Assembly (NCBI GenBank): GCA_030248295.1
Contig: JASANH010001073.1
Coordinates: forward strand, 1 to 64,000
Reading direction: 5' to 3'
Length of the DNA stretch: 64,000 nucleotides
From: Mesodorylaimus sp. YZB2_4
Taxonomy: Eukaryota; Nematoda; Enoplea; Dorylaimida; Dorylaimidae
In this document: piece after piece, positions 46,592 through 62,897 of the stretch
Position numbering within the stretch: the stretch's first letter is position 1
Layout of the letters: every line of letters starts with the position of its first letter
Notes under the pieces: generated by a model
What the model was told of the DNA's origin: nothing
Seen by the model: the letters and a program-made list of their open reading frames with translations, nothing else
Databases searched by the model: none
Program-made: the position numbers and the translations under genes

Positions 46592-49500
46592 TTATTCTGG
46601 ATGCTTATCCCACTTGAATAACCAAACCGAAACGGCAGAACTTCTGGAACAAGAGCTTAGCGTCGATTGCAGGAAACAGGTTCCGTCGGACGAGTATTCA
46701 ACGCCCACGCAATCACTTCGACCTCGACATTTTTCGATGCATTGATCCATATTCTTGGTTTGGATCTTCCCAATATTGTTTCCACCACATTCTACATTCA
46801 TCTTCACGATTACTGTTGATAGATTTTCGTGACTGCTACAATTTTCAAATTTGGATTTCAAATTGCACAACTTTGTTGAAAAGTCGTACAAAAATCCGAC
46901 GCAACCAGCCAATGTATAACAGCTTTGGAGACAAGATGTGGTCGAATTTTGGCTTATCTGTTTTAAATTATTTCCTTGGCAAGTAAAGCCACTTTTCTTC
47001 GCTGGTGCTCTCAGGAACACAGCCATCGCTCGAAAATCTTCCAAGCAATTGGTCAAAGTGGATTTCAATATGCATCCATCGGATTGCTTGTAAACCACAC
47101 CATTGCATCCAGGTCTAGCATCACATTTCTCAGTGCACTCGTCCAAAGTGGTAGCCTCTAAGCGTGCCATGTCATTGCCAGGACAGTCTTTCATATGAAT
47201 TGCTTGGACGGGATAATCTGTAGGACGACAATTTTCCATATTCGATTTGAGCAGGCATTGTTGCGTGGTCGGGTAATAGACAGCACCAGCGCAATCTGTT
47301 TCGCTTTGACAAAGATAAGCGCATGATGTGAGTGGGATGGACCAGAATTCCATTTCGTCTTTCCCAGAACAAATATACCCACCTCTGAGAGCTCTCTCTC
47401 TCACATGAACTATGAGGCCGCCCGAATCTTCAGAACATTTAGAAGCTACCGATTTCAAATAACATCCTTCTTTTCTGAATTGAACTGCAACACAATTTGA
47501 TGTTTGTTCGCATTTGAGGACGCATGCTTCCAGTGTTGTCGGTGGCATTTCAGCGATGTCATTACCGAAGCAATCATGGTTGATTCGCATTGTTACAACT
47601 GGTTTCGATGTGGCGTGACAACCGTCCCCTCTTGATTTGAACAAACAGTGTTTATTCTTCTGATCATAAGAAGCAAGGCTGCATCCTTCAGTGCCATGGC
47701 ATTGTTTCCAACATTCCGCAAGTGATAGGTTGATTTGCAAAGCTAGGTCGTAGGCGTCCGAACATTCATATCCAACAGGTTTGTTGGGATCTTTTACAAA
47801 AACCATCGTGCCCATATCGTCTTCGTGACAGTCTGTATGAGTATTTTTCAAGAAGCAGCGGGTGTCTTTGAATTGCACACTGATGCAGCTGGAATTTCGT
47901 CGGCAGTGATCGATGCAGGAATTTAAATCTGTAGGATTGATTATTTTAATGTCATGCCCATAGCAATCAAATTTTGTTCGAATTAATGCCCTCCCATTGT
48001 TGTCGCCATTCTCAAAATATGTTCCAATGTTTGATAATAATACGCATTCCGTAGTATTGAAAGTGTAAAGTGCGCCTTTGCATCGATTATTATCCCAACA
48101 ATGATCGGAGCATTCAGTTATGGATGTCCTGACGTGCAGAATTATCTTGTTTTTGTTGAATCCATTCGAAGATGAGGGTGATTTCTGTTTATTGATTGCA
48201 GGATCTTGCACCCAAGCAGTTATGACGGAGTTCTCTTGTGATGTGCAATTATCTATAGCCGACTTTAGGGAGCACACGCCATGATTATAAAGGACTCCCG
48301 CAACTGACGATATCGATCGCCCAGAATCGACGCAATCAGACATTGTCATATTATCGGCTCTGTCAATATCGTATCCCACGCATTCCTAAAATATTTTCCA
48401 ATACATATTTGTACTGTAAATAATTATAACGCATGCGAAACCCAAGCTCCAGTATACAGTAAATAACTTTTTTCTTTGAGAATACTGTATACACGCCCTT
48501 TGCGCGCCGTATGGTGCCGCTTGTATTTCCATAGAAAACAGATAGTATGTAGTGAATATTAAAATATCTTTTGAGGTATCAACATCATATCTATATCTTT
48601 TTGCAAATGAATATCTGCGTGTATATCTTATGTTTTTAAAGCGGAGATATGCATTTGAGATATGAATTTAAAAATCTTACGGAAATCTGAAATACATGGA
48701 TGTGATCATTGCTTGCATCAGCATGAACTTTTCGATGTTTTCTACGGATTATTTTGTGAACCTTCGCATCCCGCATTGGAATCACCTTTGCGCCAAGAAG
48801 CACCAAGTGTGAAAATATCAGTTTTGAGAAAACTACATTTACAGTCTCAGCTTCTGAGTGTGTGTAAGTGCAAAGCACTGATTATGGTGTAAGACTTGGG
48901 CCATCTTTAATTTGCGTTTCCTACTGATTTCATGCAGCTGGGGAAATGATAACGATATTTTCAGATACAGTTCTTTGACAAAAAGCGCGCTTTTATGTTC
49001 CTATTTGTTCAAACTCATTAGGGCGTGAATAAACAAGGTCATTAGCATAACCGAAACTGAAATTTTCTCTCAAAATCCATCTCCATAATCACTATCGATT
49101 CTGTCTGAATCGGTTTCGGCGAGTGCAACCAATTGGCACCAACTGCTCCATCTTTCCTTCCCCACATTCGAGTTTTTTGAATCAGCAAAAACGCACTAAC
49201 TGCAGAAAAAAGACGAAGTTGATGCCTTTTTGCCTGCGATCTTTGGCAGATGAGAATCAGAAAAAGTGGGTATTTGGGGGCTCAGTAATTCATGATGTCA
49301 TACTGTAGATACGGCTGAGTCGTTTTGGCAGATGAAACTTCTGAGTGCTCGAAATATATCTCAGCATTTGGTGCACTTTTCCAGTTTCACACTTGGTGGC
49401 TTTTGGCATACAGGCATCGCATTTGCGCTTTAATGCTGGTATTCGCAGGAACGCACTCTTACATATATCGGAGCCGAATATTATAAAAGGGGGGAGCAAA

Positions 49501-52500
49501 CCACTCTCAAAAGGCATTCGTAGTCACTGCAGTGAGCACAGGTGCACTGGCTGGTCTAAAAATTTTCGATTGAGATTATTTAGAAATCCGATGTTTGTTC
49601 GTTTATAAGATAATTAAAATTTTCTGAGCTCGTCTCTCCTCTATAAAATGTGAATTCCTCCTCCAAGCTCCTGAAATGTGAATGCATTCAGCTAAGCTGC
49701 GTCAACTGCAAATCGCAGGCTTGACTTGCAGTTCAAGCTGATACAGCACACTCCTCAGCTTTTGCATTTCTAATATGAACAAAGCTAACAAGTTGAAAGT
49801 TATGAGACCACTGCTGCTGCTTGGTTTGACCGATGGCCGAAACAGCAGTGTCTGAGAACAGTCAAAAAATTTTCAGGCTCTCAATTTTTCAGATTTTTAT
49901 TAATAATAGTGATTTTCAAGTTTCATAAATTTATATCTTGAATGGATGGTCATTCATACCTTTGCAGAGGATATGCTTTGAATGTTCAAACATAACTATA
50001 TCAATATCTTTGTAGGATGAACTGTAGAGAAAGTTATAAATCATATCTACCGTATTTCCTGGAAACTTTCCCCCCCCCCTTCGAAATTCTCCTCTCTGGT
50101 TATTCTCCCCCGTCTAGAACCCGATTGAATTTTATTCTCCCCCTCTCCCGAATATATTTGAGGCGCATATTATTAAAGGAATTACCGCACAGAATCATCA
50201 GGTGTGGAAAATGTGAAGGACATTAGTGTTAGCGTTACAATAATGTTTACCTTGAAGAGTCAGATGAAGATGAGGCTGCAGACGAAGATATCGTGCATAT
50301 TGATTGAATTCGGCTATGAGTAGCATGAATACGGGAAGAGAAGTATTGAAATAAACAAAGTTAGTGGTACTTGTTGGGAAGCTGTAGACTGTCTATCTTT
50401 CTATAATGGCATCGCGAAAATGTTTAATTTTTATTTTTCCCCCTCTGGAAATCCTCCCCCCTCTGGTTATTCTCCACCGTCTGGGACCCATTTGCAAAAA
50501 TTTCTCCCCAGGGGAAAATTTCGGGGAAATACGGCATGTTTTCTCTAGTTCTCATCAACACTAACTGAACTACAAACGCTTTTACCCAAATTTACAATTT
50601 TCTAAAGCTTCACTAAAGATTTCCAAGTGCCGAAAATCCAACAAAACTGAACGCTTACCTGTCGCATTTTCAATGTGACAATTGGGGTTGATGTGCTGCG
50701 ACAATTTTCAAATTTTGATTTTAGCCAGCAGTTTCTTCTGTCTAATCCATACGATACTCCTATACAATCTGGATTTCTCATGCAGGATTCCGAACAATTG
50801 TCCAAACTTATGTTCGAAATATGTTCCATATCGTTGCCTAAACACTCCACGCCTTCTCTGACCAATGGATCTTTCACCCACGCACTTGTTCCACTATTGT
50901 CTAATCGGCAGTTGAGCATTTGCGATTTCAGCCAACATTCGTCCGATATCTTGAAAACACCCACACATTTTGGAGTAGTTTTGCATTTTTTGATACATTC
51001 GTCGAGTGTGTCAACTTGAAGTTTCTCGATGTTATTTTCTGGACAGTCGTATCGCGGTATGACGGTCGTGATATCTTGTTTGGTATAACGGCAGTTTTCC
51101 ATTTTCGATTTTAACCAACATTGGGAAGTGGTCGGATTGTGAGCAATGCTGAGACAGTCTTTTGTGCGAGTGCACTGGGACACACATCCGGACAGAGATA
51201 AGGGTGTGGGAGAAGATATGTCGTTGCCGCGACAGTGATAGCCGCTACATCTCCAAGATCTGATTGCCAAGTGGGCAAGCGTCATATCATCGCTCAGATT
51301 CCTTACTGGCCATGACTCCCAAACTTCTGTGCCATTCGAGTCCGTGATGACGAGTCGCCCTTCGTCGCCCAGTGTCGCATTGAAGGGTCCTGCTGTTCCA
51401 TTTAGAATGTTTATAGTGGACCAGACCCAGAGGTAGGTGGAGTCCATAATGACCATGTTACCCTTTTTATGGTCCACAAAAAGAGTGTAGGGTGGGCGAG
51501 TGCCTGGGATATTGGCTGTGTACGACGACCACATGGTTCTTTGGTGATCTTTGATGACCAAATTTCCAGTTTCTTGTAAAATCAGTTTGAATCTGCCATT
51601 CTGCGATTGAAGTCCACTGTTTTGTTGTATAAATCTTGTGCATAGTTCGTCCATTGACTCGAGAGAGTCCTGTTCGAGAAGTCTAACTGAGATATCGATC
51701 GTGTTATGGGGATCGGTTTGATGCAAATAAGGCTCAGCAGTTTTGACGTCAGTTGGCATGAGGTACATGTCCGGATGTTTGAATCCTTGGCGACACGGCC
51801 TGAGATGAGTCGATTTAGCGCACCAGATTTCAATATTTGCAGCGTCATAAAGTCTTAAGTTTTCATCTTCGATCACGAGTTTGTATCCGTCCGAAGTTGC
51901 ATCGGCTCGTCGTGGTACACCAACAGTGTAATTATGAGCGACCGATACTGTCGACCAAACAGTGATCCATTGATTTACTCGATATTTTTGTTCACTAAAA
52001 ATATTTTTAGCTTCGATAATAAAATGACCTTTTTCAGTAATTCTAGCACGCATTGGAAAATTTTCCATGTTTTCTAATTCAGTTGACCAAACAGTCAAAT
52101 CGAATCCAACCTTTGCCAACTCTAAATTACCGTTGCGAAATTTAAGTTCATATTCGCCCCATTTCTTGATTCGTTGCGATGTCAATGGCTCTTCGTGACT
52201 TTGAAGCATACTATCTGCGGGAATATTTTTCAGATGATTATCAGTATCGACTCGAATGGCTTGCTCGTCGTCCGTGCATTTGAGCAAAGTGACTGAACAA
52301 GGTTCCGATTTTCGCACTCGGGACACTTCTACGTATCGAATTTCCTCCACTCCGTACGAATCGACGCACGTGAATGGAACTACGACCACGTCCAAATGTT
52401 GCAAACAAGCCGCTTTTACGCATTCGCCAGGTCGCACTGTGAATTCATCGCTGCTCGAGGTAGAAACGGTTTTCGTGTTGGTCTTCTCAGTTGCATTGGA

Positions 52501-53928
52501 AACAGTGATATCAGTTCCCACATCCTCTCCCTTGGTGAAAGTTCTTTCCAGTTGTCTAGTACGAGTCTTCGCTTCCTCTTCTGTCTTTCCATCAGTTCGA
52601 CTGTTCGTCTTTGAAGTTCCATGCGTGACAGTTTTGCTGACAGTTTTTGAATTTGTTCGAGTCTGACTTTCCTGTTCAGTATCGGTGGTCGAGTCGGTTT
52701 CGCTCCTTCCTTCCACTGTGTTCCAAGTCACTGTATCTTGGGTCGATTCTGAAGTGCCCGTATTGACTGTGTTGGAAGATTGGACCGAATTGGATATTGA
52801 ATCTGTCACTCGATCGTCCCGGGTCGAACTTTCCGAGTGGCCCACATTGAGCGAGGTCGAGCCGCCATTCGACCGCGCACGATTTCTGGATTGAGACGAA
52901 CCTTGGGTTTGAGACTGTGACTGGCCGGAATTGAGCGACTGGCTGGACGAGTCTGATCTTCCCCTAGTTGATGTGGAGGAACCACCCCGAGATGCGGTCG
53001 ATGATTCCGAAGTTCCTCTGCTATGACTGAGGCTACCGCCGCCGCCGAAGCCTGCGAAGGAAAAACCGGCCGAAACTGACCCACCCGTTTCCTGGGTCCG
53101 GCCGTGCGAGCGCTGGTCTTCCCAATTCCTTCCAGTCGCCTCCGATTCTTCTCTGCTCTGCGATGCTTGTATGCCTCGCTCGAAATTTGTACCGCTGGTC
53201 TGACTGGACTCTGATGTGGTGCCCTCGGACTCCGTATCTTCCCAAGTTTTGCCAGTTGTCTGCGATGTTTCTGTGCCCGTCGTCAGCGAGGTCCCCTTTG
53301 AGCGATCGTGGCCGATCGTATTGGTGTAACCTTGCGTCGATGATGTCGACCACTCCTTTCCGAATGTCTTTGACCAACTGCCACCTCGCGAATCTTCTCT
53401 GGATCGGGTTACGGCTTTTGTGCGACTGCGTTCGTGTCCTATGGTCAATGCATCGGAAACAGTATCGGCTATCGAACTTTCTTCGCCTTGATTTTCTGCC
53501 AGACTAAATCCCAATTCCAGTGAATGGGCGATGGATTTTGTGAATGAATCGCCTTCGCTTTTACTGAATCCAGTAGAAATAGATTTCCTGTAGGATTGAG
53601 CCCGACTGTCCGTGACGCTAATCGATACGGCTTGTGATAAGGTCACTTCGCCACTGATTGTTCGTTTACATGGTTCAGGAGAGGATGTGGGGCAATGCAG
53701 TGAACTGATGCCACGAATTAGAGCGCCATCGCCTTGGCCTCTTTTCAAATTGGCGTATTTCACACCCGTCAAAACTTCGTGATATGGATTGGCGATCGGA
53801 TTTTTGCTTACTAAGGGAATGCAAACGACAATTTTTTCTGGGTCGTCACCGTCATCTAATTTTCCACAATTTTGTGGTGGAAATGTAGAAAAGAAAAATA
53901 ACAAAACTAAAATTTTTAAAGGTTCCAT
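46592..53928 (-). CDS. Giant secreted protein: Ser/Thr-rich region, bulb-type lectin domains and about 12 PAN units
   Basis: Two exons, 53928-50659 and 48385-46592, join in phase 0 (CGACAG|GTAAGC ... TTTTAG|GAATGC) to give 1,687 residues. Residues 1-21 are a signal peptide. Residues about 94-493 are almost entirely Ser, Thr, Gly, Arg and Glu in alternating polar patterns with no long hydrophobic run. Residues 494-560 are Cys-containing (RPGECVKAAC, VVVPFTC). Residues about 585-705 and 775-872 each hold three repeats of the bulb-lectin type (NGNLELAK...VWST, TGNLVIKD...MWSS, EGRLVITD...VWES), the mannose-binding beta-prism fold. From residue 894 to the end run about 12 PAN/apple-like units of some 65-80 residues (CxGNDI ... 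CI.KC...C.GV ... CWLKS..NC), three in exon 1 and nine in exon 2; one lacks its first Cys. There is no membrane anchor. The role is inferred as extracellular glycan or protein binding. A pore-forming-type fold for the Ser/Thr region is conceivable but unproven. Confidence 0.82.
48386..50658 (-). other. 2.27-kb intron of the lectin-PAN gene
   Basis: The intron is bounded by GTAAGC and TTTTAG on the minus strand. It contains the inverted-repeat element at 50048-50535. Open frames inside (for example 48636-48878) have no motif. Confidence 0.7.
50048..50535. mobile_element. MITE-like element with CCGTATTTCC ends
   Basis: The left end TACCGTATTTCC(TGG)AAACTTTCCCC and the right end GGGGAAAATTTCGGGGAAATACGGCA are inverted copies. 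Pyrimidine-rich blocks (TCTGGTTATTCTCC.CCGTCT) are also repeated inside. It lies in the intron of the lectin-PAN gene. The TSD is unclear. Confidence 0.5.
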
Positions 53929-53939
53929 TCTTGTTGCAG

Positions 53940-55600
53940 CCTTGACTACTTTTATGAAAAAATCGATGGTACCCTAAAAATGCAAAAAAATTAATTACGA
54001 CCAGCACTCTTTAAAAATAAATTATTTAGGTAGATCTGGCTAATGCAGACTGTTCGAAAGAACGGGCAGCATAAGATTTGTGTCCTCCCGTCTGTACTGT
54101 ATGAACGCTTTGACCAGGTACCGTAACAAGCCCCACGAAAAGCAAATCCACAGTTTCTAAAACGCTATTTCTGGCGCCTTATAGCGGGGGGGGGCTGCCT
54201 ACAACATCAGATATATTAACGAACCGGTCTGCTGTAGTCCTACTCCTTCCAACCCACGAATGTATTTGGTACTGCGACAGTTTTAGTTTTCGCGCTATGC
54301 CCCCTTGACCTAGCGATAGTGCACTCCCACTGGTCACTTCGATGTTTCAATCAAGGTCACTTTCTTCAAGAAGGTATGCCGCGGGCTCACCTTGGTCAAG
54401 GCCTCGTACTCCAGTCTTTCGCCCACGCCTACTTGATGAATGACTGGCTGCACCAGCTGAAATAAAATGTGAGCGCGTATCGACTTTAACGCACCGAATA
54501 GAGTTTTGCAACTCCGAATCCGATTTTCCCTTTACTGGTTTCTTCCTTTTTTTGATTTTTTGGCTGAAGCCCGTTTTCACGTATACCGAGGTGCCTTCTT
54601 CAATGTACGGCCATTCAGCCTGTTTCAAGTTCTCTCGCAATAACAGCCTCTCAATAGTCTACCCCGCAAAAAATCCTAATTGTGTCCAGACAAGGCGTCC
54701 CCTTTGTATTTTTTTCGGGATGCTGGGTTTTAGGGCAATTTCAGGCCAATCTCCATGTAAATGTCTCGTTCGGACGGATACTCGGTGTAAACTTCGTGCG
54801 AGTACAAACCTCTCTCAATTATATCCGCAGTCGCTGGATATAAGAGGAGACAAGCTCAGAACAGACACAACAAGATGAGAAATATGCGAGTTTTTCGAAA
54901 TGACCAAGGCTCACTCACTCTGTCTATCATGATCCGGGGGGGGGGGGGCGCGCTGTGCGGATGGAGCCTTATAGCTGATGCAACAGAGAATTTTGTTGGC
55001 TGCTCCTTTCCTAGTTTCTTTGACCGCACTAAAAATGCGTGCAACGCCCTTACAACTTTTTTTGCTTTCAACTTCTTGAGCAATCCGGACTCGTTTGAAA
55101 TGTCGATTATCAGTGATATGCTTGGTGAAAAAAGGGTAAGCAGTGCTTGCACAGTGCGAGCCATCCACTACGCCACACTTAAATCCTTATCTTAAGGCAG
55201 AGGCTCATGAAATTTCAAATTGCTGACCTTGACCTTGACTTCAATTCGTCGCCTAACTATCTAGAAGCCCACCGTACTGTAGCAAGTCCACAAATTTTTA
55301 AATGGAGGAAAGGGTGGCGAGGTGGCGAGGGGGTGAGGAGGAGGGTCACATGAAAAGTTCTGGCAGCCTTAACATCTCTATCTTTTCTCACACTTTCATA
55401 TAACCGCCCTAAATTTTTTAAAGCAGTAGATGATTAGGCAATAGTGGCCAATGATTTCGCGGGCAAGCAGAATAGGGCACACGAATACACAGTTGGCTTC
55501 TACTAATGCATTTGTGGCCTGAAGTTCAGTACCTATGCTGTAAGTAGACGTAGAGTACAGTGCACCTGAGCTTGGTAGGAAATATGTATATAATCGCTAC
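53940..55600. other. Intergenic between the lectin-PAN gene and the channel fragment
   Basis: A TTTTTAG|GG acceptor-like site on the minus strand just upstream of the ATG at 53928 hints at a 5' UTR intron. Poly-G runs lie at about 54187 and 54938-54946. TGACCTTGACCTTGAC at about 55225-55240 matches the GGTCAAGGTCA repeat. No gene is supported. Confidence 0.35.
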
Positions 55601-57051: not shown

Positions 57052-60000
57052 CTAGTTACCCTCGCCACGTAAATAGCGAGGATTTTCAACCGACGTTGCG
57101 ACGAGGACAGTGGGATCCAAAGCGTAGGTGACTGGAGCGGTTTCCATCTTTGCCACATTATCAAATCCATCGTAAGGATTTCCCAAGTTGCGCATTTCCA
57201 CATCTCTGCCCGTCCTTTTTTCATTTGAAATGGCAGTGAAATCTGTTGAATAACGTTGATCCTTAGTATCGTTCCCAGTTAGCAACGCCTCCTCCTCTTG
57301 CTCCTGCTGGGGTGCATCTTGTGCCTCGACCGTGTCTTCTCCTTCCATGGTGGAGAGATTGAGGTAAACCCCGCATACCCTGACCCATTCTTCCGACAGG
57401 GCCACAAAAGCCGACTGATAAGTAGATGGTGACAGCTGCTGGAGAATAGTTGAAATCCATTTCTTGCATTGATGAAAATTCGGGCGGGCTTCGGCATCGA
57501 CTTTCCAGCATGCACGCATTAACTGATATCTATAAGTATGAAATACAGTTTATAGGGGTATCAAGGACAGAGTGGCCACGTGTGCTCACATAGGGTCACA
57601 CGCAATGCCAGGCGGTCCCAAACGGTTATTTTCGCTAGCTCGCAACCATCTACGAAATTCCATGGGATCGCCTCGCTGTTCCAAATATGGTGTTTTACCG
57701 CAGTTGAACATTTCCCACAGAACAACACCAAATGACCACCTGAAAATTTAGACTTGGAGCTTGGAAATTTTTAGCTTGCAAAAGATCAGAACGAGTTCAT
57801 TCTGATCTTTTGCAAGCTAAAAATTTCTCGACACTCACACATCAGATTTTTTCGTATAAACTGAAGGGTTGATCAAACATTCTAATGCCATCCAATAAAT
57901 TGGCAGTGGAGTGTCAGGGCATGAGCCTCGTTTGCGACCAGCGTCATCTTGGCGAGCTAATCCAAAATCAGCGATTTTCACAATGTGATTTGACGTCAGT
58001 AATAAATTCCTGAGTGCCAAATCGCGATGAATTATCTAAATACATGGAAATTTTTTAAAAGATTTGTGGGACAGAGTAAGAAAATAATTCACATTTGATG
58101 CACTCAAATGAGCCATTCCATTGCCCGCCTGGTAGGCAAAACACAGCAATTTCTCGACGGCACCCTGTGCTCCCTGAAAAATAACTAGAATAGAAAAAGA
58201 GATAATCATATTTGGAAGGCATGGCTTAAAAACTGACGATGAGCACTGCTGACCAGCTCACAATCAGCCTCAGCGACGCTGGGCGCAAAACCAATTTCCC
58301 TTCTGTCGTGAGCCTCCACCTCAGCAAGCTTCGGAGGGAGCCACAGCTGATCGTGAGTAGGTAACCTCCCTCCTGATTGTGAGTCTACACGTTGCATCAC
58401 GTGTCAGATCACAAGTATGTCAGAGCTGTAAAAGAAGTGTGCGACTGCCAAGCATGAATAATCTGCGTCCGACTCTATGAGCTGTCTCAGGAGTCAGGCA
58501 TAAAACTTATCGTGCCAGGCCAGCCAAGGAAGTCGGAGCTCCAGACCCTGAGCCTGCTCAACAAGCCACCCCTTTTTGGTCCTGAAGAGGGTAAATAAAA
58601 GAAGCACTGGTTCAGGGCGGCCTTTGCACTGTGGTTCGCTTCCGCAGTGTTTTAGCTGTTTGCTTTCAGTGTCCCCAGTTCGCTTACCAAGAACTGCCCA
58701 GTGGCATTGACCGAATGGCCTTCAAAGGCGACGGATCGTTTGATTAAATAATCGCGCAATGATCCATTTTCACAGAATTCGATTAGAACGAATAACTGTC
58801 TTTTGGCTAAATCTTGCGTACATGCACCAATCAGAGTCAGCACATTCACGTGGGGTCGAATGTGGCACATTATTTTCAGTTCATCAACCAATGCTTGATA
58901 CGAGTGGACGTCAGACGTGTCTAAAATATTTACGGTGCATAAAATTGAACAATGTCATTCAAATTTTGTAGCAGGCTACGGGGCACAACAACCAGTCAGA
59001 TTGATTTTCACTGGTGCACTTCTGGTGGACAGTCAGTGTGACACTGATGATGAGTTTTGTCCAAGTGCATAAGCTCCACGTCCTTTTTTTTTGGTGGGTT
59101 GGGCCCAGCACCGCCGCATTTCCCGCACAGGACCTCCAGCCCGTTATACCTGCAGCTGACCAGCAGTCGTGATATGCTTAGCGAGACCGCGAGGTGACCA
59201 CGGCACCTTCCTTTTGTGTCTCCACTAGGAGCACCTCCACACGAGGGTATCCTGGACCGGACAATGACTTCCTGTGACGATGGCGGGTGGGCTGTGAACC
59301 CTGTCAGTCTTCGACCAATGAGACTGTCTACTCGTCTGGCTTCCGTCCCTCCACGCGGAGCACCTCTAGGGTACCGGGTGAGTCGCCCGCGGCATGGCAT
59401 GCAAGGTCAGCGAGGGTTTATGGTTTCCAAGCCGACCTCCATCACCGGGGATCGAACCTGGGGCGCAGCTAGCGGCTCGCTACCCAGAAATACGGGCAGA
59501 CGGTGCCAAACCACTGCACCTTCGCGGCTGCTCCCCGCGGTCTTGTCTAGCAACGGCCGATCCCGCCCTGGGGAGACACTATGGTGAAGGTGACCGTGTC
59601 GTATTATATTTTTACGCTTCACCTATGGCGTGCCATATAACAGGCGGTATGCCTCTTATGGAGAGTAATATTTACCTGATGGTAGCTTCACAGCGACATC
59701 AATTTTCGAGTTTTTGCTTGGCCTCGATTTTAACTCGCCCTTGATAACTTTTCCAAACTGTCCTAAGCCAAGTTCGATTGATGTAAGACTCAGCAAATTT
59801 TTATCTATTTCGTATTTCTTCGCATTGTATGACAATATGGTCACTTGTTCGTTGAGAGCCTTATCCGCGTCGATTTTCTTCCCAGTTGTTTTTAGCTTTT
59901 CAGCTACGAGGCTGAATGATTTCTGCAAGGAACGAAAGAGCTGGGTTTCGAAGGACTGTCGTAAAAACGTAAAAAAGGCTCACATTTAATTTTCTATTCT

Positions 60001-62343
60001 TCCAATACCAAACTACGAGGACGAGGAGAAAACCAAAAGTGATCGTGCTCAAAGTAGCGATGATGACTGTCGTCGACACAGAGAAGGATGGAGTGAATTT
60101 CTTGACCAGAAATACTTTGTTCCGTTGTCCGTTTACATTTGCAACATTACATTGATAGACACCAGGTTCAGTCACTTCGACAGTCTCATTATTGAAGAAT
60201 TCTTGCCTTTGCATGAAATCAGGTTGCTCTGGATCAGTTGCGTAGCTCCACTCTATTTTTGGTTTTGGATACCCGCCGGCCTTACAAGTCAGAGCGACCA
60301 TGCCATTAACAAGAAATCTTTCCTCTTCACTTTCGTCCAAAACTGGTGCTTCGTAGTCGCTGAAAAGTGAAAAGTATCCTGAGCTTTGAAATGTGGAGAT
60401 GCAGGGGCCAAGATTAGTGCGACTTGCTATGGGTGGGTGAGTCATGGGGAAACGACCGTTCGACCTGTTGAATTGGGGACCCGCTGTGGGGACAAAGGGA
60501 GGTCTGTCGTGATTCAACGAGCAGATACACTTAGGACGTGCTTTGCTGTGGGAACGTGACCCATTAGGACGTGCTGTGTGCTCGACTCGCGGGCCGGTAA
60601 ATCATTTCGTGTAAAATGTGTCTCTTCACCCTCGAGCGCGCATAAGCGTTTGGTGATGTAGTAGGTGTGTTTGGCATGTGGAGAAGGTAGTGTATCTGGT
60701 TGTCTTTACTGGCCGCCTGCCGGCTATTCCACCTATTACAGTGATGTGATAAAACATGAACATGAAAATGTAGGCGTTTGGGGGGGGGGGGGATGACAGT
60801 CTAACAGGGATAACAGAAGGCGCTATCTGAAAGAATGTCGAGTGCCAGCCAGCGCTAAAAAATTACAGCAAGGTATCTACTGTACATTCACCCGCTCAAA
60901 ATGGAGTTATTAAAATCCTCTTCATATAGCCGCCAGCAGTTTACAGAAGAGTACCTCGGTCGTGGCCTAGCAGGCTACGGCGTAGGCCTCTCATGTGGGT
61001 GCGCACTTAGAGGAGAGGGTTCGACTCGCGCCTCGGTAAAAAGTGACTGTAAAATATGTGTTCCTTAACCCGAAAGTGCGCTGTAAAGTACTTGGCTAAG
61101 GATAAAGTATGACGCGACATAGCATAACTTACCGCCAGCTTTGGACGCCACTCGCTAGCACACAGTCTTTCACTTTGAATGTTCTTGTAGAATTATTCTC
61201 AAAAGTGAACACTATTATTGCATTTTCTGTGAACCTCTGGTCTCCTTGCGCGTCAAACTCAAAGTAGCTGCTGTCATCTCGGGATACACCCATAATCCCA
61301 GCAGTCACTGCGCCCTTGACGACCCAACCAACATTGAATACACCCACAATAATATGATCGAGCCGAGGAACGCTCTTTGGACGGAAATAGCACGCTGCGT
61401 CTTTTGTCTTTAATGAATTGACGTAATAAAGGTTAATTCTGCACTGTTCTTCCTCCGATTGCAGTTTCCCGCCAGTGACTTCATTCCATGTCTTTTTCAT
61501 TAAAGCCACCCCGCATGAGCCGAATTCAGACTTGCAGTATCCGGCAACCACTGCCTCTGCGAGAACACCTCCGCAATCCACTTGCACCACTTGTCCACAA
61601 AGACCATGTCTCCAAATCAGACCACCAAGAAGCGGCGAGTCGCCCAAGAGTAGAGCGTGGTGGATTTGATAATCAGCGGTTGGTAATCGGCAACTGCCAA
61701 GGTCTGTTTCATTTTTCCATACAGTGGCCTGTGCTGAGTGCGACCTGGTGCCAACTTTCATGATACCGCAGATGGCGGGGCCCAGACTGGAAGTAGGCTT
61801 TGCTTGGTCCCTCGACAAGGCCCCACTTTTTAGGACGCACATTCCGCTGGATTTGGTCCACGTAAAATGTGTGCATCCGCGCGTGTGAACACATGATGGA
61901 CCACATCTTTCGCCGGAGCTCATGGGGACATGGCTGATATTAACATGGATATCCCAGTCACAGCTATCCGCCCAATACAGATCACCCTCCTGGTGCCAAC
62001 CAAATCGCACGTCCTTCATCAGTCCACAGATACAATTCCTACAACTCACATACTCAGCTCGATCCGATGTCAAGGATCCTTGTTTCAATCGACACAATTC
62101 ATCGTCTTTAGTCCAAGTGAAATGAGTACAATTTGGATCGCGCGTGCACTGATCTCCGCAATATTCAGGATCAACTTTTGATAAGCTGAAGTCGCTGAGA
62201 TTCCATCCACAGTTTTGTGCCCAAAACAAGTTCAGTTCTTCTTTCCAATATACTGTTTGATTTTTCACGACCTTGCCAAAAGCTGGGTGAAATTTCAGCA
62301 GCATAAGTAGATAAGTAAAAAGTGAAGTGCTAGAGTGCGCCAT
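57052..62343 (-). CDS. Receptor tyrosine kinase with PAN-PAN-expansin-like-Ig ectodomain
   Basis: Eight exons, all in phase: 62343-61133, 60359-59984, 59922-59676, 58920-58688, 58173-58093, 58035-57839, 57739-57590 and 57529-57052, giving 990 residues. Signal peptide about 1-23. Two PAN-like modules occupy about 35-108 and 118-194 (each with C.....THFTWTK...C.LK.G). Residues about 210-395 look like a double-psi beta-barrel/expansin-like module (GSC, GLCGQVVQVDCGG, CRINLYYVNSLKTKDAACYF). An Ig domain has cysteines at about 429 and 474, and the membrane helix is at about 498-523. The kinase spans about 575-850: GLGQFGKV loop, VAVK lysine (about 608), HRDLALRN (about 719-726), DFG (about 739) and SDVWSFGVVLWE. 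The motifs CHIRPHVNVLTLIGACT and FCENGSLRDYL recall VEGFR/PDGFR-type kinases. The segment between DFG and PIYWMALE has no tyrosine. The tail is acidic with NPYDGF and NPRY motifs. The exon 1-2 join uses a perfect GTAAGT donor and TTTTCAG acceptor with matching phase. Confidence 0.83.
57765..57826. repeat. Perfect 26-bp intronic hairpin
   Basis: Positions 57765-57790 are the exact reverse complement of 57801-57826, with a 10-base loop. The hairpin fills most of the 99-base intron (57838-57740) of the receptor kinase. Size and perfection recall a small-RNA precursor or a tiny foldback insertion. Confidence 0.9.
59040..59590 (-). repeat. SINE family 2, copy c (with unoccupied insertion site)
   Basis: On the minus strand the tRNA-like part at about 59535-59440 includes GCGAAGGTGCAGTGGTTTGG (A-box region) and GGTTCGATCCC (B box). 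The body extends to GTGTCTCCACTAGGAGCACC at about 59217. It lies in an intron of the receptor kinase (59675-58921). The motif CCACACGAGGGTATCC at 59236-59251 is the uninterrupted equivalent of the hAT insertion site at 42225. Confidence 0.65.
60573..60775 (+). repeat. SINE family 1, copy d (5'-truncated, interrupted)
   Basis: It starts in the B-box region (CTCGACTCGCGGGCCGG), then ATCATTTCGTGTAAAATGTG and GCGCATAAGCGTTTGGTGATG, as in copy c. About 80 extra bases precede the GTGATGTGATAAAACATGAACATG tail. It lies in intron 1 of the receptor kinase. Confidence 0.65.
60948..61128 (+). repeat. SINE family 1, copy e, adjoining a splice donor
   Basis: It begins CTCGGTCGTGGCCTAGCAGG with a clear B box (GGTTCGACTCG), then the body and the tail TTGGCTAAGGATAAAGTATGACGCGACATAGC, which stops about four bases from the GTAAGT donor of receptor kinase exon 1 (minus, 61132). 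Confidence 0.75.
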
Positions 62344-62794: not shown

Positions 62795-62897
62795 TGACAA
62801 TCATATTTTATCCAGGCGGCAGTCGAACCCTCCCCTGTAAGTGCGCCCATGACCTGAGAGGGGGACGTCTATCACTAGGCCACGATCTGGGCTTTAA
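62795..62897 (-). repeat. SINE family 1, copy f (partial)
   Basis: On the minus strand: AGATCGTGGCCTAGTGATAGAC, then a B box in GAGGGTTCGACTGCC. The 3' body is only partly preserved. Confidence 0.55.

Follow-up and report, generated by a model that had tools for sequence, protein, structure and literature searches.

A predicted receptor tyrosine kinase of the PDGFR/VEGFR type with a PAN-PAN-expansin-like ectodomain in a dorylaimid nematode

Introduction

The first 64,000 nucleotides of contig JASANH010001073.1 from the nematode Mesodorylaimus sp. YZB2_4 (assembly GCA_030248295.1), here called the window, carry on the minus strand an exon for two PAN modules and an expansin-like module, followed by exons for an immunoglobulin (Ig) domain, a membrane helix and a tyrosine kinase. 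Does the first exon belong to the receptor gene and, if so, how did a tyrosine kinase come by such an ectodomain? An earlier note on this DNA had proposed one chimeric receptor gene with exon 1 joined in phase to the Ig-kinase exons. We conclude, with a probability of roughly 0.68, that the window gene (C157a) encodes a receptor tyrosine kinase resembling PDGFR/VEGFR, whose membrane-distal Ig domains gave way to a secreted protein of the PAN-PAN-expansin-like kind.

Structure of the window gene and its kinase

Eight minus-strand exons spanning 62343..57052 (Table 1), all bounded by GT/AG ends, were found to join into a single frame of 2973 bases (990 residues and a stop) with zero internal stops. 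Exon 1 ends in TGG CG/GTAAGT, and exon 2, after its TTTTCAG acceptor, supplies the rest of the split codon in frame, so that the junction described in the earlier note was confirmed at 61133/60359. No signal-like start was seen by eye in the open frame of exon 2, in agreement with the claim that the Ig exon has neither a start nor a signal peptide of its own. The remaining modules were likewise recovered: PAN_1 in two stretches of exon 1 (Pfam, 6.9e-11, 42.3 bits vs a cut-off of 21.4), an Ig near threshold (Ig_2 at 27.7 bits vs a cut-off of 27, Ig_3 at 29.2 vs 30), a single strongly hydrophobic stretch around residues 501-523 (the N-terminus is hydrophobic too, more weakly) and a tyrosine kinase domain (3.9e-71) with glycine loop, VAVK, HRD and DFG all intact.

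The solved kinase chains closest to the window kinase, among the best 60 of 845 matches in a PDB sequence search, were VEGFR2, PDGFRA, KIT, VEGFR1 and CSF1R, then FGFR2; the top match, a chain with two EGFR kinases that was counted twice, was set aside in this ranking. Judged by its sequence, the window kinase is PDGFR/VEGFR-like (class III/V). Receptors of class III/V carry five to seven Ig domains. The window receptor resembles them in its membrane-proximal Ig, one membrane helix and a kinase most like VEGFR2/PDGFRA/KIT, but has an ectodomain Ig count of one, its membrane-distal part (residues 1-404) being composed of two PANs and the expansin-like module.

Four receptors of the Ig type in the same genome (C86a, C86b, C3 and C238) have kinases with 46-64% identity to that of the window gene, and their last Ig and membrane segment are homologous to those of the window receptor. 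They differ from it in that Ig-like coding sequence is open up to the last Ig. The intron at the proposed fusion site is missing from all four, because coding sequence runs unbroken into the last Ig (4/4). A second Ig upstream of the last was seen by eye in C86a, C3 and C238; in the Pfam scan, which covered C86a and C86b, it was confirmed in C86b and not in C86a. No PAN or expansin-like match was found on the receptors' own strand in the stretches searched; the nearby PAN matches of C238 are on the other strand. Between DFG and PIYWMA, the activation loop of the window kinase (57870-57970) lacks a tyrosine, as do those of C86a, C84a (a paralog described below) and C238; C3, C86b and C403 have VY(K/R)K there.

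Paralogous loci and the proposed fusion junction

A search of the genome (145 Mb in 1067 contigs, the locus counts being lower bounds) placed the expansin-like module at a minimum of five loci: the window gene, C157b, C84a, C84b and a stand-alone copy, C174. C157a, C84a and C84b, the last two on another contig, each carry a homologous Ig-membrane exon behind the PAN-PAN-expansin-like exon and on the same strand; the introns between measure 773, 1445 and 548 bases, respectively, and the junction is of phase 2 on both sides in all three. Exon 1 was thus assigned to the receptor gene because paralogous loci repeat order and phase, which together with the 990-residue frame supports a single chimeric gene. 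A GTAAGT stands at the homologous place in 4/4 PAN-PAN copies (C157a, C157b, C84a and C84b), although the three intact copies (the broken C84a being left out for exon 1) have diverged almost to saturation at synonymous sites (0.70-0.83 vs 0.26-0.38 at nonsynonymous sites). C174, which has its own signal exon and its own stop, reads CGATAAGCC at this place, where CGA TAA GCC is a real stop and no donor.

The earlier note had also stressed that the reading frame of exon 1 meets its stop codon inside the donor. The stop is present but unremarkable: phase-2 introns with GTAAG generate NNG-TAA and those with GTGAG generate NNG-TGA, as seen also in introns 6 and 7 of the window gene. The GTAAGT stop is therefore no evidence either way, because every phase-2 GTAAG or GTGAG intron shows one. 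A genome-wide count of TGGCGGTAAGT (104 vs 76 for the control) says little.

The exon 1 copies differ in their state of preservation. Divergence among C157a, C157b and C84b (three pairs, the broken C84a being left out) was 0.76-0.78 at synonymous sites (pS) vs 0.28-0.38 at nonsynonymous sites (pN), and exon 1 looks to be under constraint. C157b (C157:64131-65276, L023) is a complete PAN-PAN-expansin-like exon with an intact 395-codon frame, located just past the right end of the window and directly upstream of the window gene; searches between it and the window gene, and upstream as far as C157:85999, gave no Ig or kinase match. In C84b the exon 1 and Ig-membrane frames are both open, and no kinase match at E<=0.01 was detected from its Ig exon to C84:318000 (about 20 kb). 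Exon 1 of C84a is interrupted by two in-frame TAGs as well as a frame change, and its kinase has a frame change and HGY for HRD; it is a broken receptor gene. At C84:293.7-294.4k lies a further remnant, with PAN pieces and the end of a kinase.

Outside this genome, a profile of just the module, run against 2641 protein database candidates, returned one match: P0001, a metagenome protein of 185 residues encoded on a 1234-base contig. C174 and P0001 share the predicted two-domain module with the window gene. Each is 47% identical to the window module and 77% identical to the other, and in an unrooted module tree the two pair with a support of 0.974, with C84a next to them.

These data are consistent with the following series of events. 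On the 5' side, the donor of intron 1 lies on the codon where C174 stops; on the 3' side, its acceptor lies in the linker ahead of the last Ig, where coding is continuous in the four relatives. A secreted protein would have had its stop region turned into a splice donor, and intron 1, which looks like a fusion scar, may have arisen at the fusion. In the resulting receptor, the two PANs together with the putative two-domain expansin-like fold would form a ligand-binding head, ligand would cluster receptors, and the kinase would signal via its tail. The reverse direction, with C174 derived from a receptor, is less parsimonious: fusion of a secreted protein into a receptor is favored because C174 and P0001 retain the Asp of expansins and group together in the tree.

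Several observations weigh against this reconstruction, at least in its simple form. The window kinase is nearly as close to the Ig-type C86a (64% identity) as to C84a (65%), and a kinase tree of seven sequences, all from this genome, groups C84a with C86a (0.874), apart from the window gene. In addition, the expansin profiles DPBB_1 and Expansin_C matched 0/5 members of the module family at E<=10, with nothing matching the window copy in Pfam at E<=10, and hhalign comparisons to sets of 4, 9, 78 and 49 expansins were negative.

If the fusion is real, it would provide a traceable case of a growth-factor-type receptor gaining a new outer head, in which one genome still preserves the donor protein (C174), the acceptor receptors (Ig-type), the junction between them and the subsequent loss of catalytic residues. 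To our knowledge, no other receptor tyrosine kinase has an expansin-like ectodomain. A literature search, with subscription journals and preprints mostly outside it, revealed no receptor tyrosine kinase with an expansin domain, with or without PAN, and for PAN in receptor tyrosine kinase ectodomains the matches, from sources available in part, concerned the ligands HGF and MSP. The similar statement of the earlier note is not contradicted by this narrow search, which probed it thinly. Plant S-domain receptor-like kinases also combine an ectodomain PAN with a membrane kinase but, unlike the window receptor, have a bulb-lectin ectodomain and a Ser/Thr-type kinase and are presumably of unrelated origin.

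Wall-active residues and the proposed ligand-binding head

The earlier note had suggested a glycan- or matrix-sensing role. Asp82 of bacterial expansins (B. subtilis EXLX1) is required for activity, and residues W125, W126 and Y157 touch the glucan (PMC5072189, available in part). In 4/4 PAN-PAN copies the expansin Asp column was found to hold Ala, with Asp present in C174 as well as P0001. The aromatic pair of the second domain (D2), which is YW, WW or YF in expansins, reads by eye DH in C157a, HR in C157b, NG in C84b and SF in C84a, and was retained as YF in C174 and YY in P0001. The PAN-PAN copies have thus lost known wall-active features, at least in part.

These substitutions bear on a wall-polysaccharide sensor, in which the expansin-like head would bind plant or algal glycans from food and then signal. 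Such a role would fit the company that PAN modules keep in this genome, where a PAN and thaumatin protein (L024 2085-2861, on C84 near the paralogs; thaumatin 5.9e-11) and a PAN protein with a weak GH18 match (L044 2412-4061; E 0.0014, below its cut-off, the next open frame being chitinase-like by eye) were detected. Since PAN modules precede thaumatin and GH18-like parts, a secreted glycan-handling ancestry of the module is plausible. For the receptor itself, the Ala in all four PAN-PAN copies and the DH of the window copy speak against a wall sensor, which we regard as rather unlikely; cellulose sensing by the window receptor is doubtful, and an exapted binding head is likelier. With neither the catalytic Asp nor the D2 aromatic pair left in the window copy, we think that the head would bind a ligand other than crystalline cellulose, such as a glycoprotein, another glycan or a peptide. 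The suggested glycan- or matrix-sensing role is thus weakened, with a glycan or glycoprotein ligand still entertained. We suspected a glucanase as partner of one PAN-PAN protein on C84, but Pfam matched 0 families and did not confirm it.

Relationship of the ectodomain module to expansins

Alignment of the window module with 22 expansins gave identities of 14-19%, and C174 and P0001 together scored above shuffles in comparison to expansins. Unlike bacterial and plant expansins (e.g., PDB 3d30, 4jcw and 1n10), the window module has no Pfam match, and its catalytic Asp and D2 aromatics are replaced. Neither a PDB sequence search with the module family profile nor a single-sequence structure model of the module supported an expansin. 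The best structure model reached a mean predicted local distance difference test score (pLDDT) of 55.5 and was guided by expansin rows, hence circular. In a plant hmmsearch run, a reversed control ranked above C174, and the PF01357 (Expansin_C) profile had no match across the genome, its control being equally silent. Seven DPBB_1 matches exceeded the Pfam cut-off in the genome (on C120, C87, C79, C376 and C21), none at the loci of the module family.

The alternative that residues 204-403 form some other disulfide-rich domain, resembling expansins by chance, draws on the lack of support from Pfam, the PDB sequence search and hhalign, on the low-scoring, guided model and on the reversed control. 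With the alignment and the retained residues of C174 and P0001 on the other side, we consider it unlikely. An expansin-like identity of residues ~204-403 is moderately supported by alignment and model; the double-psi beta-barrel (DPBB)/expansin-like module that the earlier note placed at residues 210-395 stands to this extent, with Pfam and hhalign negative.

Exon 1 had no match in the protein database at E<=0.001 among proteins of 0.55-1.75 times the query length, a range with full-length receptors outside it; the absence of relatives is not established by this result because such receptors were excluded by length. The database does include eukaryote proteins of plants. Of 87 stretches that fit a pattern when a prokaryotic origin of the module was considered, none coded for a relative.

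Alternative readings of the locus

We also considered whether the locus is a two-form gene, in which splicing would give the receptor and retention of intron 1 a soluble ectodomain, with C157b as an alternative first exon for the same Ig-kinase exons. Soluble VEGFR1 made by intron retention provides a precedent. C157b has an intact frame (pN 0.28 vs pS 0.76 to that of the window gene) and a GTAAGT donor, the next downstream Ig exon is exon 2 of the window gene, and an AATAAA lies 36 bases past its stop. By contrast, C157b could be simply a secreted protein, and the stop in the donor is of the kind that every phase-2 GTAAG intron shows. AATAAA follows the stop by 53 bases in C174 and by 144 bases, into intron 1, in C84a; it is absent from intron 1 of the window gene and C84b. 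The two-form reading is made less likely because intron 1 of the window gene has no AATAAA, and we hold it to be quite improbable. AATAAA near the stop was tried as a separator of secreted and fused copies, which fails since C84a has one too. In an extended version, to which we give similarly little credence, C157b and exon 1 of the window gene would be interchangeable first exons feeding one Ig-kinase body, with the splicing choice at the stop-codon donor setting membrane receptor vs soluble decoy; the birth of the receptor would date to the conversion of a secreted, wall-active protein's stop into a donor, and its wall-active sites would then have decayed into a new ligand-binding head.

Two separate genes, i.e., a secreted PAN-PAN-expansin-like protein ending at the TAA and an Ig-kinase receptor with an unseen 5' exon, would accord with the stop of C174 at the same codon and with the lack of an Ig or kinase exon of its own at C157b in the stretches searched, but are very unlikely given the order and phase repeated at three loci, the GTAAGT found in 4/4 PAN-PAN copies and not in C174, the open frame of exon 2 without a signal-like start and the AATAAA-free intron 1 of the window gene.

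Feature coordinates and surroundings of the gene

Table 1. Features of the window gene (C157a), in window positions.
Feature	Positions	Strand	Content
Exon 1	61133..62343	-	Residues 1-403 plus two bases of codon 404: signal-like segment, two PANs, expansin-like module
PAN module 1	62029..62202	-	~residues 48-105; Pfam PAN_1/PAN_4; ends approximate
PAN module 2	61750..61953	-	~residues 131-198; second Pfam stretch; ends approximate, by eye
Expansin-like D1, predicted double-psi barrel region	61396..61719	-	~residues 209-316; alignment and model
Expansin Asp site	61506-61504	-	Ala280 in window copy; within D1
Expansin-like D2, predicted CBM63-like beta-sandwich	61135..61395	-	~residues 317-403; aromatic pair position is Asp329-His330; alignment and model
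Intron 1	60360..61132	-	773 bases; donor GTAAGT (in-frame TAA), acceptor TTTTCAG; phase 2; proposed fusion scar
Exon 2	59984..60359	-	Membrane-proximal Ig (residues ~409-487) and membrane helix (~501-523)
Exon 3	59676..59922	-	Juxtamembrane, glycine loop, VAVK
Exon 4	58688..58920	-	Kinase N-lobe and hinge
Exon 5	58093..58173	-	Kinase
Exon 6	57839..58035	-	HRDLALRN, DFGLAR, activation loop
Exon 7	57590..57739	-	Kinase C-lobe
Exon 8	57052..57529	-	Kinase end and C-terminal tail; stop TAG

Intron 6 of the window gene contains a perfect inverted repeat (57765-57826) with 27-base arms at 57826-57800 and 57791-57765. Stretches resembling tRNAs or short interspersed nuclear elements, with GGTTCGA boxes, were noted by eye at 59400-59560 (intron 3) and 62810-62890 (upstream of the gene); ARAGORN reported no tRNA in the window. 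The region is PAN-rich: the minus strand encodes a PAN-repeat protein at 46592-48385 and, at 50602-53973, a 1123-residue frame in which C-terminal PANs accompany a repetitive part that, by eye, is rich in Ser/Thr. Other genes recognized by Pfam in the window include a rhodopsin-type G protein-coupled receptor, an astacin and, below its cut-off, an amiloride-sensitive channel.
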